From Patescibacteria group bacterium (GTDB taxonomy: Bacteria > Patescibacteriota > Microgenomatia > Daviesbacterales > UBA10151), in assembly GCA_023379125.1 (NCBI GenBank), contig JAMCSY010000027.1, positions 69,249 to 116,463 of the forward strand: DNA of 47,215 nucleotides, written 5' to 3'. Shown here in pieces: positions 37,478 through 43,737 of this stretch (position 1 is its first letter; each line of letters begins with the position of its first letter). A program made the position numbers and the translations under genes. A model generated the notes under the pieces. It was not told the origin of the DNA. It did not search any database and saw only the letters and a program-made list of their open reading frames with translations.

Positions 37478-38323
37478 ATGAACTGCCTTAATCGTCTCAT
37501 CAAATACTTACTAGCCTTTTTGCTGTTTTTTAGTATTTACCTAATCCCGATATCGGTAATTGCTCAATCAAGCTCAATTGAGGTAACCTCAGTTTTTGAC
37601 TTAGCCGATAAAGAAGCTCAGAATGGCGATATTATTTCCAACATTGAAGGTGTGGGGTTAACTCGCACAACAGCAGCTTATGATCAAAGACTCTTTGGGA
37701 TTGTGCAAAATGATCCAGTAATTGTTTACCGGAGGTTGGATAACAGTGGCACACCCATCGCCCGCTCTGGTGTGGCAGAAGTTAACGTTACAACATTCAA
37801 CGGTGATATTCAGAGTGGAGATTACATTACCTCTTCAGAGATACCCGGTAAAGGTCAAAAAGCTGATGCTTCAGGATATGTTATCGGTGTAGCCCTGGAG
37901 TCGTTTACAAGCCAGGATGGTCAAGAATATGATTACCAGCCTATTTCTAATCCTAGCAAAATACAGAAATTAAAGACTGGTCAAATCCAGGTAGCTTTAA
38001 AAATAGAATATGCTGAGATTACCCGAACCAGATTCTTATCTGGCCTTCTCAATATTATCAACACTGCCCTATTCAAAAATTTAGAAGATCCTAATAAATT
38101 TGTTCAGCTTTTTAAATACACCTCAGCTGGATTGGTAATTTTGGTTAGTTTCATCATTGGCTTTTTATCATTCTCTCGTTCAATTCCCAAAAGTATTGAA
38201 GCAATTGGCCGGAATCCACTGGCTCAACGGGCAATTCACTTCTCAATTATTCTGAATATTGTCTTGACTATCATCACTGCTCTACTTGGTATTGGTGCTG
38301 CCTTACTGATCTTGAGGCTTTAA
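37478..38323 (+). CDS. Secreted fibre-type ectodomain fused to a c-subunit-like membrane hairpin
   Basis: 281 residues. A signal peptide or first anchor is at 8-29. The ectodomain (about 35-180) has 'YDQRLFGIVQNDPVIV' and 'NGDIQSGDYITSSEIPGKGQ', a pattern I know from the C-terminal domain of tail-fibre-like and beta-strand-repeat proteins. Two membrane segments (about 214-232 and 252-279) are joined by 'SIPKSIEAIGRNPLAQRAI', which matches the polar loop of ATP synthase subunit c (EAIARNPxA). TM2 reads 'ILNIVLTIITALLGIGAALL': where subunit c has the ion-binding Glu (LTEA), this has LTII, and no acidic residue is in either helix. It is the first gene of the F1 operon and has a good ribosome-binding site (AAGGGG). 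It probably cannot carry protons. No family name is known to me. Confidence 0.75.
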   Translation: MNCLNRLIKYLLAFLLFFSIYLIPISVIAQSSSIEVTSVFDLADKEAQNGDIISNIEGVGLTRTTAAYDQRLFGIVQNDPVIVYRRLDNSGTPIARSGVAEVNVTTFNGDIQSGDYITSSEIPGKGQKADASGYVIGVALESFTSQDGQEYDYQPISNPSKIQKLKTGQIQVALKIEYAEITRTRFLSGLLNIINTALFKNLEDPNKFVQLFKYTSAGLVILVSFIIGFLSFSRSIPKSIEAIGRNPLAQRAIHFSIILNIVLTIITALLGIGAALLILRL

Positions 38324-38346
38324 TGGACTGAAACCCTTACTTCGTA

Positions 38347-38378
38347 ATGAGCCTTGAAGACTCGTCTCTTACTTCGTA
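38347..38378 (+). repeat. ATGAG-type unit between the first two ATPase genes
   Basis: One 32-bp unit starting ATGAGCC, with linker CTTACTTCGTA that also occurs just before it (38336-38346). It encodes a 10-codon micro-ORF, MSLEDSSLTS. Its stem is weaker than in the other copies. Confidence 0.45.
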
Positions 38379-38422
38379 ATGAACAATTGTCTTCAACTTT
38401 AAGATGTACTATGCTTTAATCA

Positions 38423-39127
38423 ATGCCCACTCTTAACCTTGAAAACATCATTCTATTGGCAATTTTGCTGCTCACCACAGCTTTGTATCTTTGGGAACAT
38501 CGTAAAAACCAAAAACTCTCCAAAATTCTCGAGCTCGAGCCAGAAGCGATCACCAAATCTACTGAGTCACAAAGTTATAAGATCATCCATGATGCTATTC
38601 GTAAAGCTCAGGCTATTCTTGGTAGTGCCGAGACAGAAAGTATCAAATTAGTGGCTGACAGCCGTACCACCAGTGAGAATCTGCAAAAAAAGTACGCAGA
38701 AGAGATAGAAAAATATAAAAACCAACTGCAAGCCTCTTTGCAGGAACAAGTTAGTGTCTCCCAATCAGAGTTTAATAAATTTCTTGATGATCTAAAGTCT
38801 CACAGCGAACAGTCACAAACACTTAATCAGCAAGTAACCGAGCAACGTACTCGCGAAATTTTTGAACTCTTTGAACAAAGACTAGCCACATTTTTAACCC
38901 AAACTGAACAGGAAAGTATCTCTGCCGTGGATTTGGAGATCAAAGCTGCTAGGCAGCTGATTGATACTTACAAATCACAGCAGCTAGCTTTAATTGATGA
39001 AAATATTATTGCTGTTTTGGAAAGAACCCTAGCTATTGTCCTTAACAAAAAACTACCATTAAAAGATCAAATGGATTTAGTCTTCGAAGCTTTAGAAAAA
39101 GCTAAGACAGAAAAGTTTGTTATTTAA
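38423..39127 (+). CDS. F-ATPase subunit b-like peripheral stalk protein
   Basis: 234 residues: one N-terminal membrane segment (4-22), then a long charged coiled coil ('LQKKYAEEIEKYKNQLQASL'), and a C-terminal segment 'VLNKKLPLKDQMDLVFEALE' like the end of subunit b. Subunit b links the membrane part to F1 through delta. It is longer than typical b (about 160). It lies 100 bp after the c-like gene and 3 bp before the delta-like gene. Identification depends on the operon context. Confidence 0.75.
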   Translation: MPTLNLENIILLAILLLTTALYLWEHRKNQKLSKILELEPEAITKSTESQSYKIIHDAIRKAQAILGSAETESIKLVADSRTTSENLQKKYAEEIEKYKNQLQASLQEQVSVSQSEFNKFLDDLKSHSEQSQTLNQQVTEQRTREIFELFEQRLATFLTQTEQESISAVDLEIKAARQLIDTYKSQQLALIDENIIAVLERTLAIVLNKKLPLKDQMDLVFEALEKAKTEKFVI

Positions 39128-39130
39128 TTT

Positions 39131-41149: not shown

Positions 41150-41154
41150 AACAT

Positions 41155-42009
41155 ATGCCAACAATTAGACAAATTAGTCAAACTCTAGAAGAAAGTAATT
41201 CTCTGAAAATGGTTGCCCAAGCATACAGCGAAATATCTGCTGTTAAATTACAAAAAATCCGTGCTGGGATTGAGAAAAATCGGCTTTTTACAGAAGAAAT
41301 CGGGAAGCTTTACCATATGGTGCAAACTGCTGCCACTCGCAGAAGCGTTGTAAGCCACTCTAGCAAAAAGGGTACTATAAGTATCGTCCTTACTTCCAAT
41401 GACCGCTTTTACGGTAGTCTAGAGACCGAGTTAACCCGTTTTTTCTTAGTTAACACTACAAAAATACGGACTGATCGGCTGGTGATTGGACGAACTGCAA
41501 TTGACCAATTAAAGAGCATCAAATACTTTCATACTTATCAACCGCTCGTCTTTCAAAATGATCTACCATCTACTACCGAAATACATCAAATAGCTCAGTT
41601 AATAGATCATTATAAACAGGTCGTAGTCTATTATTCTAGCTTTCAAAGCGTCTTGATCCAAAAGCCCACCGCTACTGATATTACTCAATCAGCAACAGAA
41701 ACCGTGAGTGTCAAAACTGCTGATAAGTTAGATTATATTTTTGAGCCTGAGGTTGAACAAATGCTCGATTTTTTTAACAATCAAATTACCATGTTGCTTT
41801 TAGAACAAACCTTTTTTGAAGCAGAATTGGCTAGAACAGCAGCGCGTCTAATCTCGATGGATCAAGCTCAAAGTAATGCTGAAGATTTTATCAAAGAGCA
41901 AAAAAGACAACTCGCTGCTGCCAAACGCTCTTTGGAAAATGTCTATTTATTGGAGACGATTGCCAGCTTATTAAACTCAAGAAGGAACAATTATGCTCTC
42001 AACAAATAA
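41155..42009 (+). CDS. atpG: F1-ATPase subunit gamma, divergent
   Basis: 284 residues. The N-terminal helix '[20 protein letters not shown]' and C-terminal helix '[23 protein letters not shown]' form the rotor coiled coil typical of gamma. The Rossmann middle part has '[13 protein letters not shown]' in place of the usual 'SDRGLCGGFN'. Gamma turns inside the alpha-beta ring. Its end overlaps beta by 17 bp. Central rotor residues appear kept, so a rotating machine is plausible. Confidence 0.9.
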
Positions 42010-43396
42010 TCCTAATCACCAGCATATTAACATTAACCCAGTTAACGGTCGAATCATTAGCGTCAATGGTCAAATAGCTGAAGTCGAAATTGAGTCTGAC
42101 AGCTACCCTCAATTACTGGAAATACTAGTCTCACCAGAAAATGATCAAATTAGGCTCGAAGTTTATTACCAGTCAGAAAAGGTTGTCTCTTGTCTCATTT
42201 TATACGGACGATCACTTCTCTATCGAGGCATGAAAATTACTGGTACAGGCTCTGAGTTAAAAACTCCTCTGAGCAAAGATATTTTAGGCCGAGTTATTAA
42301 TCTTTTTGGTGATCCTCAAGATAGCGGTGGACCAATTTCTAATGCGAACTGGACACCCATCTATTCCAAAACCCCCGCTCTAAACACCATCCGTTCAAAA
42401 TCTGAGCTACTGGAAACCGGTATCAAAGCGATTGATTTTCTGACACCTTTTGTTAAAGGAGGCAAAATTGGTTTTATTGGTGGAGCTGGTGTGGGAAAAA
42501 CTATTCTAATGACGGAACTTATTCATAATATTACCGCTGCCCACTCTGGAGTCTCCATCTTTGCCGGTGTGGGAGAAAGAATTCGTGAGGGACAAGAACT
42601 ATACCAAAGATTATTAACCTCTAAAGTGATGGCTAACACGGTCATGATTTTGGGCCAGATGAATGAAAATGCTGCCATCCGTTTCCGCGTTGCCTTGGCT
42701 GCAGCAGCGATCGCTGAGTACTTCCGCGATTTGCACCACCAAGACGTATTATTTTTTATTGATAACATGTTTAGATTTGTCCAAGCAGGTTCAGAAGTTT
42801 CAACTTTACTTGGCACCACTCCTTCAGAACAGGCTTATCAAGCGACTCTACAAACAGAGATCAGCTCTTTAGAAGATAGACTAGTACCAACTGAAAATGG
42901 CACAATCACCTCTATTCAGACAGTTTATGTACCTTCTGATGAATTAACTGATGCTGGTGTTAACGCGATTATGTCTTTTCTTGATACAGCTGTAGTTTTG
43001 TCGCGATCGATTGCCCAAATGGGTATCTATCCCCCAATTGATCTGTATCAATCCTCAACATCAACTGTCTCACGCTCGTTAATTAGCAGTGATCATCTAG
43101 CAGTGCTAACTTTATTTCAGCAGCTTTTAGACCGTTACAACAAGCTTTCTCATATTGTAGCTATTGTTGGAGAATCAGAACTGTCTGCTGACGACCAAAC
43201 TGTCTTTAACAGAATCAAAAAAGTCATTAATTACCTCACGCAACCATTTTTTGTTACCGAAATTCACACTGGTCGCAAGGGAGTTTTTGTGCCAATTAAC
43301 ACGACAATTTCAGATATTCGGGAAATATTGTCTGGCAAATTAGATGACGTTCCAGCTGATAAGTTGATGTACATCGGGGATTTAAAAAGTCTATGA
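41993..43396 (+). CDS. atpD: F1-ATPase subunit beta
   Basis: 467 residues. Catalytic motifs are intact: P-loop GGAGVGKT at 163-170, E195 and R196 in [18 protein letters not shown] with D257, '[20 protein letters not shown]' and '[11 protein letters not shown]'. The DELSEED lever is changed to ESELSADD. So ATP binding and hydrolysis should work. ATG is preceded by AAGGA within the end of gamma, which suggests coupled translation. Confidence 0.95.
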
Positions 43397-43452
43397 TGAA
43401 TCTTCAGCGAGTTAATCCTCTATTGGCTAAGAATATATATTGCTAAACAGTT

Positions 43453-43737
43453 ATGAGTGTATTAAAAGTCAAAATAGTAACCCCTAAAGCAACTATTTTC
43501 CAAGGAGACGCAGACTCTGTTTCTTCAACTAACAGTTCTGGCAAGTTTGATATATTACCAGAACACGCTAACTTTGTAACTTTAATCAACAATCACCCCA
43601 TTACCCTTTGTTTAGCTAACCAGCAGACCAAAAGTTTTACTTTCCCTCTAGCAATTATTTATACTCATAATAATCAAATAGATATCTACACGGATATTAC
43701 TCTACAGTTAGAGAACATCTCCAACACTACTCACTAA
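43453..43737 (+). CDS. atpC: F1-ATPase subunit epsilon, N-terminal domain only
   Basis: 94 residues: 'LKVKIVTPKATIFQGDADSV' and 'GKFDILPEHANFVTLINNHP' are the epsilon beta-sandwich. The C-terminal helical pair that blocks ATP hydrolysis in normal epsilon (about 130-140 residues) is missing. Last gene of the operon, 56 bp after beta. The lack of the inhibitory arm would favour a constantly active ATPase. Confidence 0.85.
   Translation: MSVLKVKIVTPKATIFQGDADSVSSTNSSGKFDILPEHANFVTLINNHPITLCLANQQTKSFTFPLAIIYTHNNQIDIYTDITLQLENISNTTH

Follow-up and report, generated by a model that had tools for sequence, protein, structure and literature searches.

An F1-type ATPase operon of Patescibacteria without subunit a or the c-subunit carboxylate, whose c-like protein carries a predicted secreted domain

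Organization of the locus

We analyzed a 47,215 nt stretch of DNA (the window) from a Patescibacteria genome, bases 69249-116463 of contig C27 (JAMCSY010000027.1) in a 972-kb assembly of 27 contigs that is 96.9% complete; the right end of the window is also the right end of the contig. Positions 37478-43737 of the window contain a run of seven genes for subunits of an F1-type ATPase, all on the plus strand and in the order c-like, b-like, delta, alpha, gamma, beta and epsilon. The distances between them are 99, 3, 15, 5, -17 and 56 bases, and the list of open reading frames (ORFs) of the window shows no additional gene between c-like and epsilon. A preliminary description, made from the sequence alone, had proposed this order, these coordinates and the tight spacing, and all seven ORFs were indeed found there on one strand. 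The features, in window positions, are as follows.

37478..38323, plus strand: c-like putative rotor protein, 281 aa, with a signal peptide, an ectodomain and a C-terminal c-type transmembrane (TM) hairpin
37583..38014, plus strand: ectodomain, residues 36-179, all-beta, resembling phage fibre and cement/decoration domains (AlphaFold2, Foldseek, Pfam)
38090..38317, plus strand: c-type TM hairpin, residues 205-280, with the predicted cytosolic loop EAIGRNPLA
38270..38272, plus strand: codon for Ile265, at the position of the c-subunit carboxylate (RNP+18)
38423..39127, plus strand: b-like peripheral stalk protein, 234 aa, with a single N-terminal TM helix and a coiled coil
39131..39616, plus strand: delta-like subunit, 161 aa (weak OSCP match; conserved position)
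39632..41149, plus strand: alpha-like subunit, retaining the P-loop Lys and the Arg finger (profiles, alignment, tree)
41155..42009, plus strand: gamma-like central shaft (PF00231, 8e-26)
41993..43396, plus strand: beta-like catalytic subunit, retaining the catalytic residues (profiles, alignment, tree)
43453..43737, plus strand: epsilon-like subunit, 94 aa, beta-sandwich domain only (PF02823 over residues 4-81 of 94)
44018..47215, plus strand: N-terminal part of a giant presumed surface protein that continues past the contig end (MerR-type helix-turn-helix, HTH; TM helix 219-237; Ser/Thr/Gly/Asn-rich region)

We did not take this run as a chance arrangement because it recurs in related genomes (40 fetched loci, and full-length c-like matches in 61 of the 379 genomes of a phylum sample). 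A scan for promoters and terminators gave hits no more numerous than in shuffled sequences. We designate as variant those loci that, like the window, combine a secreted ectodomain and an acid-free c hairpin in one protein with an operon b-delta-alpha-gamma-beta-epsilon.

The F1 head and stalk

Pfam and NCBIfam searches of the window identified alpha (1e-67), gamma (PF00231), beta (1e-65) and epsilon (PF02823, 1e-13); beta exceeded the cut-off of TIGR01039 (atpD), with 478 bits, and alpha fell below that of TIGR00962 (atpA), with 395 of 484 bits. Delta gave a weak OSCP match (0.035, below cut-off) and a match to the C-terminus of TIGR03321 (1e-3). The b-like protein showed no b-family match in Pfam, and was assigned from its position, its one N-terminal TM helix followed by a long coiled coil, and its 37 homologues in the fetched loci.

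The catalytic residues of beta (K156, T157, E182, R183 and D243, E. coli numbering) are unchanged in 53/53 variant rows, as is R376 of alpha in 58/58. The operon of the window encodes the P-loop, Glu and Arg finger expected of F1Fo alpha and beta, as well as a gamma and epsilon shaft in which epsilon is reduced to its N-terminal domain. Short epsilons are common in the variant (79-97 aa in 27 of 34), whereas those from ordinary operons, recognised in 8 of 20 loci, span 135-159 aa. Ratios of nonsynonymous to synonymous substitution (dN/dS) for beta and c-like among seven same-family loci were about 0.04-0.13 where computable; dS was high and near saturation, so that these values are a rough guide, and as such they point to purifying selection on the variant operon. 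From this conservation, the variant F1 is very probably an active ATPase.

A c-like protein with no membrane carboxylate and an additional domain

The c-like protein of the window, searched alone, had no match to any Pfam family; a profile of 41 c-like members matched solved c subunits at 3e-4. In the AlphaFold2 model (mean pLDDT 91.9, pTM 0.65) the hairpin superposes on c subunits with a root-mean-square deviation (rmsd) of about 1.5-2.3 Å and target TM-scores of 0.73-0.85, with modest Foldseek E-values of 0.04-0.2. Its loop includes the motif EAIGRNP, identical in 12 of the 15 ordinary c sequences compared. In ordinary subunit c, the loop EAIGRNPLA docks gamma and epsilon.

The protein reads LTII, as the preliminary description had pointed out, where ordinary subunit c reads LTEA or FAEA: I265, at Pro247+18, occupies the position at which Glu is found in 20/20 loci for ordinary c of the same class, and the membrane carboxylate that an F1Fo ATP synthase requires is therefore lacking from the window protein. 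The same position was examined in 131 distinct variant hairpins (from c-like ORFs in which the RNP motif is present and the tail has 25-45 residues; 164 before deduplication, truncated ORFs excluded). None carries an acid at RNP+18, which is occupied by I, V, L, F, A, G, T or M, and 99 have Asn at +13.

The preliminary description had missed that this 281-aa protein also bears a secreted N-terminal domain. The ectodomain resembles phage fibre-type models (Foldseek against BFVD, E 1e-10), PF09956 (Phage_cement_2) was found in 3 of the 41 c-like members (best 1e-4), and the ectodomain family recurs within giant ORFs of the same genomes. Because there is a signal peptide and the loop is positively charged, it follows that the ectodomain would lie outside and the RNP loop inside, as in ordinary c.

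Other c-like architectures were also seen. The proteins at L173:7326-8630 (Sungbacteria) and L172:1513-3087 (Parcubacteria) have an additional N-terminal HTH-like segment, scoring below the cut-off of HTH_17, and a TM stretch before the ectodomain, an extension that echoes the HTH-TM start of the giant proteins of Daviesbacteria. Two divergent hairpins of family f44 (L235, L236) have Glu at +12 of helix 2, not at +18, and in family f110 (L231-L234) the F1 genes are flanked by two acid-free c-like genes, one on each side.

Absence of the ion channel and distribution of the variant

The preliminary description had noted no subunit a and had proposed searching the full genome for atpB and a canonical atpE. 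Neither was found: the genome of the window, at 96.9% completeness, has no match to PF00119 (subunit a), in a search that was positive in 9 of 14 control genomes, and none to PF00137 (ordinary c), and it contains one alpha/beta pair.

We then considered 113 related genomes, taking as carriers those with hairpin-containing hits, counted by hand. The variant is present in 53, of which 41 have atpB at another locus and 12 lack it; c-like genes were found in 40 fetched loci from 38 genomes. The atpB gene of the 41 lies on another contig (38) or more than 250 kb from the c-like gene (3), and the 20 ordinary loci examined, all from variant carriers, have their own alpha, gamma and beta genes adjoining atpB. 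None of the 12 relatives without atpB has a PF00137 match, which three comparison genomes do have; one of these relatives (G026) retains an ordinary-looking alpha/beta pair, and G067 shows a sub-threshold atpB fragment. An ordinary synthase with parts scattered elsewhere in the genome was accordingly rejected, there being no atpB or ordinary c in the genome of the window and no atpB in the 12 relatives. It is also unlikely that an assembly gap hides subunit a, because atpB is on another contig or more than 250 kb from the c-like gene in every relative that has it; moreover, the one-contig genomes G249, G336, G368 and G075 hold the operon without atpB, and G249 (a single contig of 878,109 bp, 99% complete) also has no ordinary c.

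In the phylum sample, 35 of the 61 genomes with full-length c-like matches have atpB and 26 do not, and the variant and atpB are not associated in either direction (counts 35, 26, 167 and 151; Fisher p 0.58). In family f73, 16 of the 17 genomes with a c-like match have no atpB (one match is a fragment, outside the 61). A search for ordinary c in 18 of the 26 carriers without atpB found one above the cut-off in G228 only, next to an additional alpha/beta set, and a partial sub-threshold match in G328. A search for alpha and beta in 22 of the 26 revealed an additional strong pair in G228 and G279; these ORFs, of 607 and 636 aa, together with a double c hairpin in G228, suggest that the extra pairs are of A/V type. 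Both alpha/beta pairs of G323 are of variant-like strength, and the weaker matches near 1e-30 in many carriers without atpB are presumably Rho.

A scan for the peptide pattern EA[ILV]GRNPLA, in a set that overlaps the previous ones in genomes, retrieved loci whose record labels include, among the best 80 of 153, Daviesbacteria, Gottesmanbacteria, Levybacteria, Roizmanbacteria, Woesebacteria, Amesbacteria, Curtissbacteria, Blackburnbacteria and WWE3, with one Parcubacteria and one Sungbacteria. The suggestion of the preliminary description that this could be a new class in the lineage of the window was thus too narrow, since the variant occurs in many Patescibacteria.

With the carboxylate and subunit a both absent, there is no known path for ions, and judging from gene content and residues the variant is almost certainly not an ion-coupled synthase.

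Phylogeny of the alpha and beta subunits

Quick trees, with support from the Shimodaira-Hasegawa-like approximate likelihood ratio test (SH-aLRT) only and rooted on E. coli for display, separated the variant from ordinary synthases. In the beta tree, the 53 variant sequences fell on one side of a branch with support 100 and a stem of 1.1, and the 20 ordinary sequences grouped apart with support 85. The variant remained separate in enlarged trees (beta, 66 rows, support 100; alpha, 71 rows, support 99), which added more divergent variants, two N-type rows and one Listeria row; there, ordinary rows grouped with support 77 in beta and formed no single group in alpha. Alpha and beta are therefore a separate clade and do not nest inside the ordinary synthase of relatives. 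The preliminary description had said that such nesting, and a subunit a and normal subunit c elsewhere in the genome, would contradict it; both checks came out in its favour. Incidentally, the beta tree places L131, whose record is labelled Saccharibacteria, with a Roizmanbacteria-type locus (support 88), so that this label is doubtful.

Genes for surface-type proteins next to the operon

Large ORFs rich in Ser, Thr, Gly and Asn (at least 300 aa and at least 34% S/T/G/N) accompany the variant. In a matched control with 19 of the 41 genomes containing both systems, they occurred in 16/19 variant windows and in 1/19 ordinary atp windows of the same genomes, spanning 90.4 of 330.6 kb and 1.9 of 373.6 kb, respectively; variant windows were 8.5-19.8 kb, several of them cut by contig ends, and ordinary ones 17-19.9 kb, and one of two variant loci was used for G066 and G099.

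The giant protein of the window has a single TM helix after its HTH. In 14 of 20 same-family loci, the ORF following epsilon likewise starts with a MerR-type HTH and then continues as a large protein or to the contig end; these starts were read from the N-termini, with L048 making 15, and Pfam was run on the window and L041 only. The remaining five have a 2703-aa ORF (L044), a sortase (L046) or other genes (L050, L057), or stop before beta (L055). A sortase is also the next gene in L113 and L132 (the latter Roizmanbacteria), both tested with Pfam. An obligatory partnership with the MerR-TM fibre was not supported, because giant ORFs with MerR-type starts also occur in G003 and G007, where no variant c-like hairpin was found.

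Several other neighbours were recorded. Upstream of the operon in the window, on the opposite strand, are a weak SprT-like match below cut-off (33726-34157) and, by eye, a leucyl-tRNA-synthetase-like gene (34372-36786), and many same-family loci have opposite-strand ORFs of like size at the corresponding position. L060:1-4860 (Gottesmanbacteria) encodes, after beta, a giant protein with two integrase-type SAM domains followed by collagen repeats (549 bits). Several Levybacteria loci have a gene of about 312 aa before c-like, which in L134:2612-3553 matches Fic and a DeoR-type HTH. By eye, secretion-type N-termini are present in three more ORFs between c-like and b-like in L231 and in a run of ORFs after the operon in L236. 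Lastly, eight Woesebacteria-labelled loci (L137, L144, L145, L148, L152, L174, L175, L179) contain an ORF of 558-579 aa between c-like and b-like; that of L148 is a phosphoglycerate mutase (Pfam iPGM_N), whose N-terminus is shared, by eye, by L137, L145 and L175. This gene recalls the PGK-associated motors of Mycoplasma mobile.

A putative ATP-driven rotor

The explanation that we favour, and consider probable, is that the F1 head uses ATP hydrolysis to rotate a membrane ring which carries no ions. The c-like copies would assemble into a ring; gamma and epsilon would dock on the conserved RNP loop and rotate the ring upon ATP hydrolysis, while b and delta would hold alpha3beta3. Each copy would project its phage-fibre-like domain outside the cell, and a rotating ring with such an extracellular crown appears likely from the sequences and the model. 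The crown could then engage, turn, strain, export or assemble surface proteins such as the giant MerR-TM fibre, with attachment, surface movement, fibre assembly or deployment, and export as candidate roles; whether the motor works on the neighbouring surface fibres is, from the gene context, an evenly balanced question. The preliminary description had proposed an ATP-driven motor joined to a surface structure and uncoupled from energy conservation. The absence of subunit a and of the acid, the secreted domain and the contrast in neighbouring surface genes agree with that proposal, in which rotation and the joining to fibres are the parts that we infer. More tentatively, with a probability somewhat short of even, the variant could form a novel class of rotary ATPase that is spread widely among Patescibacteria. 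Its c-ring would have changed from an ion turbine into an ATP-driven extracellular rotor with a phage-fibre-like domain on each subunit, and this rotor would turn or strain giant fibres of the cell surface that serve to hold host cells or surfaces or to act on them.

A number of observations weigh against this explanation. With subunit a absent, no known component supports b next to the ring, and torque might be lost; a brace might be provided by the b-like TM helix, the cell wall or the HTH-TM fibre. The P-loop Lys of alpha (K175) is kept in 57 of 58 rows and lost in one. Matches of the ectodomain in the PDB superpose poorly, with phage decoration chains (8pkh) at E 1e-4 and an rmsd of about 7 Å. 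Acidic residues do occur at other positions, at +12 of helix 2 in two of the 131 hairpins and in helix 1 in one. As for the fibres, 3 of the 19 variant windows have no surface-type ORF, the fibre link is not obligatory in view of G003 and G007, and some loci outside Daviesbacteria have an unrelated next gene, with M16-like peptidase and arginyl-tRNA-synthetase-like N-termini (by eye) in L073, L078 and L076.

Alternative explanations

The F1 head might instead energise or chaperone the secretion or assembly of surface proteins without rotating, as in FliI/SctN or mollicute type 3 ATPases, with the c-like protein as a membrane adaptor. Surface-type genes, sortases (L113, L132) and giant proteins do adjoin the operon, and the F1-like ATPase of mollicute type 3 is needed for a surface antibody-cleaving system (PMC12994834). 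Nevertheless, the operon retains gamma, delta-like and b-like proteins and the loop of c, as a machine with shaft, ring and stator would need, and the FliI/SctN profiles gave the beta of the window at most 222 bits, compared to 478 for atpD. We regard this alternative as unlikely, albeit the strongest.

It is much less probable that the complex is an ion pump after all, with another TM protein replacing subunit a and another residue serving as the ion site. The Asn at +13 found in 99 of 131 hairpins might be such a site, and the putative stator parts b and delta are retained; but the +18 acid is absent from all 131 hairpins, the window has no further gene between c-like and epsilon, and the operon is retained in genomes without atpB.

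Marginally less probable still is that the operon belongs to the mollicute type 2/3 F1-like ATPases and was acquired horizontally. The theme is similar, with an F1-like enzyme, no subunit a and a tie to the surface, and two sources describe a mollicute cluster protein with a signal peptide and two C-terminal TM helices (PMC12994834, PMC11864180). Conversely, the mollicute profiles reach neither the scores of the ordinary profiles nor their own cut-offs, whether for beta (MSC_0618, 385 of 570 bits; MMOB1670, 374 of 850; atpD, 478) or for alpha (MMOB1660, 354 of 600; MSC_0619, 267 of 520; atpA, 395). Mollicute clusters have no b and delta homologues but contain a 12-TM protein (PMC3369863); the variant keeps b-like and delta-like proteins, and that layout was not seen in the window.

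The least credible option is that the operon is a duplicate of ordinary ATP synthase genes in decay. Its c-like hairpin and F1 do show a clear relationship to parts of that enzyme, but the catalytic residues are intact, dN/dS is low, the sequences form one deep clade, an ectodomain has been gained, retention is wide, and some genomes have the variant as their sole strong alpha/beta pair.

Implications for energy metabolism in Patescibacteria

Genome papers on the Candidate Phyla Radiation (CPR) interpret F-type operons as ATP synthases. The operons have been taken as a route to ATP (PMC4736985) and counted in 10 of 17 Parcubacteria genomes (PMC4508563), and F-type synthases were reported in 20 of 33 CPR and lost in 10, with distant paralogues excluded (PMC10656485); an F-type operon in CPR bacteria without means of making an ion gradient was called intriguing (PMC8080830). 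In part of the Patescibacteria, genes annotated as atpA and atpD probably do not belong to a synthase, and therefore energy coupling in this group may be overstated. If the rotor is real, it would also give a molecular entry point into the ways in which these bacteria affect their hosts or surroundings.

Comparison with known systems

The variant shares with the F1Fo ATP synthase of Patescibacteria homologous alpha, beta, gamma and epsilon subunits, a delta-like protein with a weak OSCP match, a b-like protein assigned by architecture, position and homologues, and a c hairpin with the EAIGRNP loop. It differs in having no subunit a and no c carboxylate, in the secreted domain on c, in its short epsilon and in forming a separate deep clade. 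Among the literature matches listed, from open-licence papers, there was no description of this variant system.

The variant resembles two mollicute systems, type 2 (the gliding G1-ATPase of M. mobile) and type 3 (MIB-MIP), in being F1-like, putatively tied to the surface and not known to be ion-coupled. The mollicute clusters have the 12-TM protein plus a small cytosolic protein and no recognised c homologue, whereas the Patescibacteria variant keeps b-like and delta-like proteins. PMC3369863 reports no equivalent of the mollicute types in other bacteria, and describes the N-ATPase as a further F-type operon beside the ordinary one. The two N-ATPase-like operons fetched, L250 and L251, have annotated subunits a and c, and their alpha and beta fall outside the variant clade; as the window also lacks subunit a and AtpI-type genes, identity with the N-ATPase was rejected.

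A partial parallel exists in Listeria monocytogenes, where L253:5076-19216 (NZ_LR134402.1, a plasmid-collection record) holds a second atp-like operon, matched by gene order to lmo0086-lmo0094; a deletion of lmo0082-lmo0094 includes an ATP synthase-like operon (PMC13082608, 2026). As in the variant, no subunit a is annotated in this stretch, its c has Val at +18 (counted by hand) in place of the acid, and large proteins with an N-terminal TM helix belong to the cluster: two upstream, of 1959 and 768 aa, with one such helix each by hydropathy scan. Unlike the variant, it has a plain 80-aa c without an ectodomain; b and delta, which come next, are apparently fused, and a 4-TM protein follows alpha, gamma, beta and epsilon. 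Its alpha and beta lie outside the Patescibacteria variant clade, and these sequences suggest a separate loss of ion coupling, apparently an independent parallel. If the variant is a rotor, it would be a further case of an energy enzyme evolving into a surface motor, in addition to the route put forward for mollicutes and perhaps one in Listeria.

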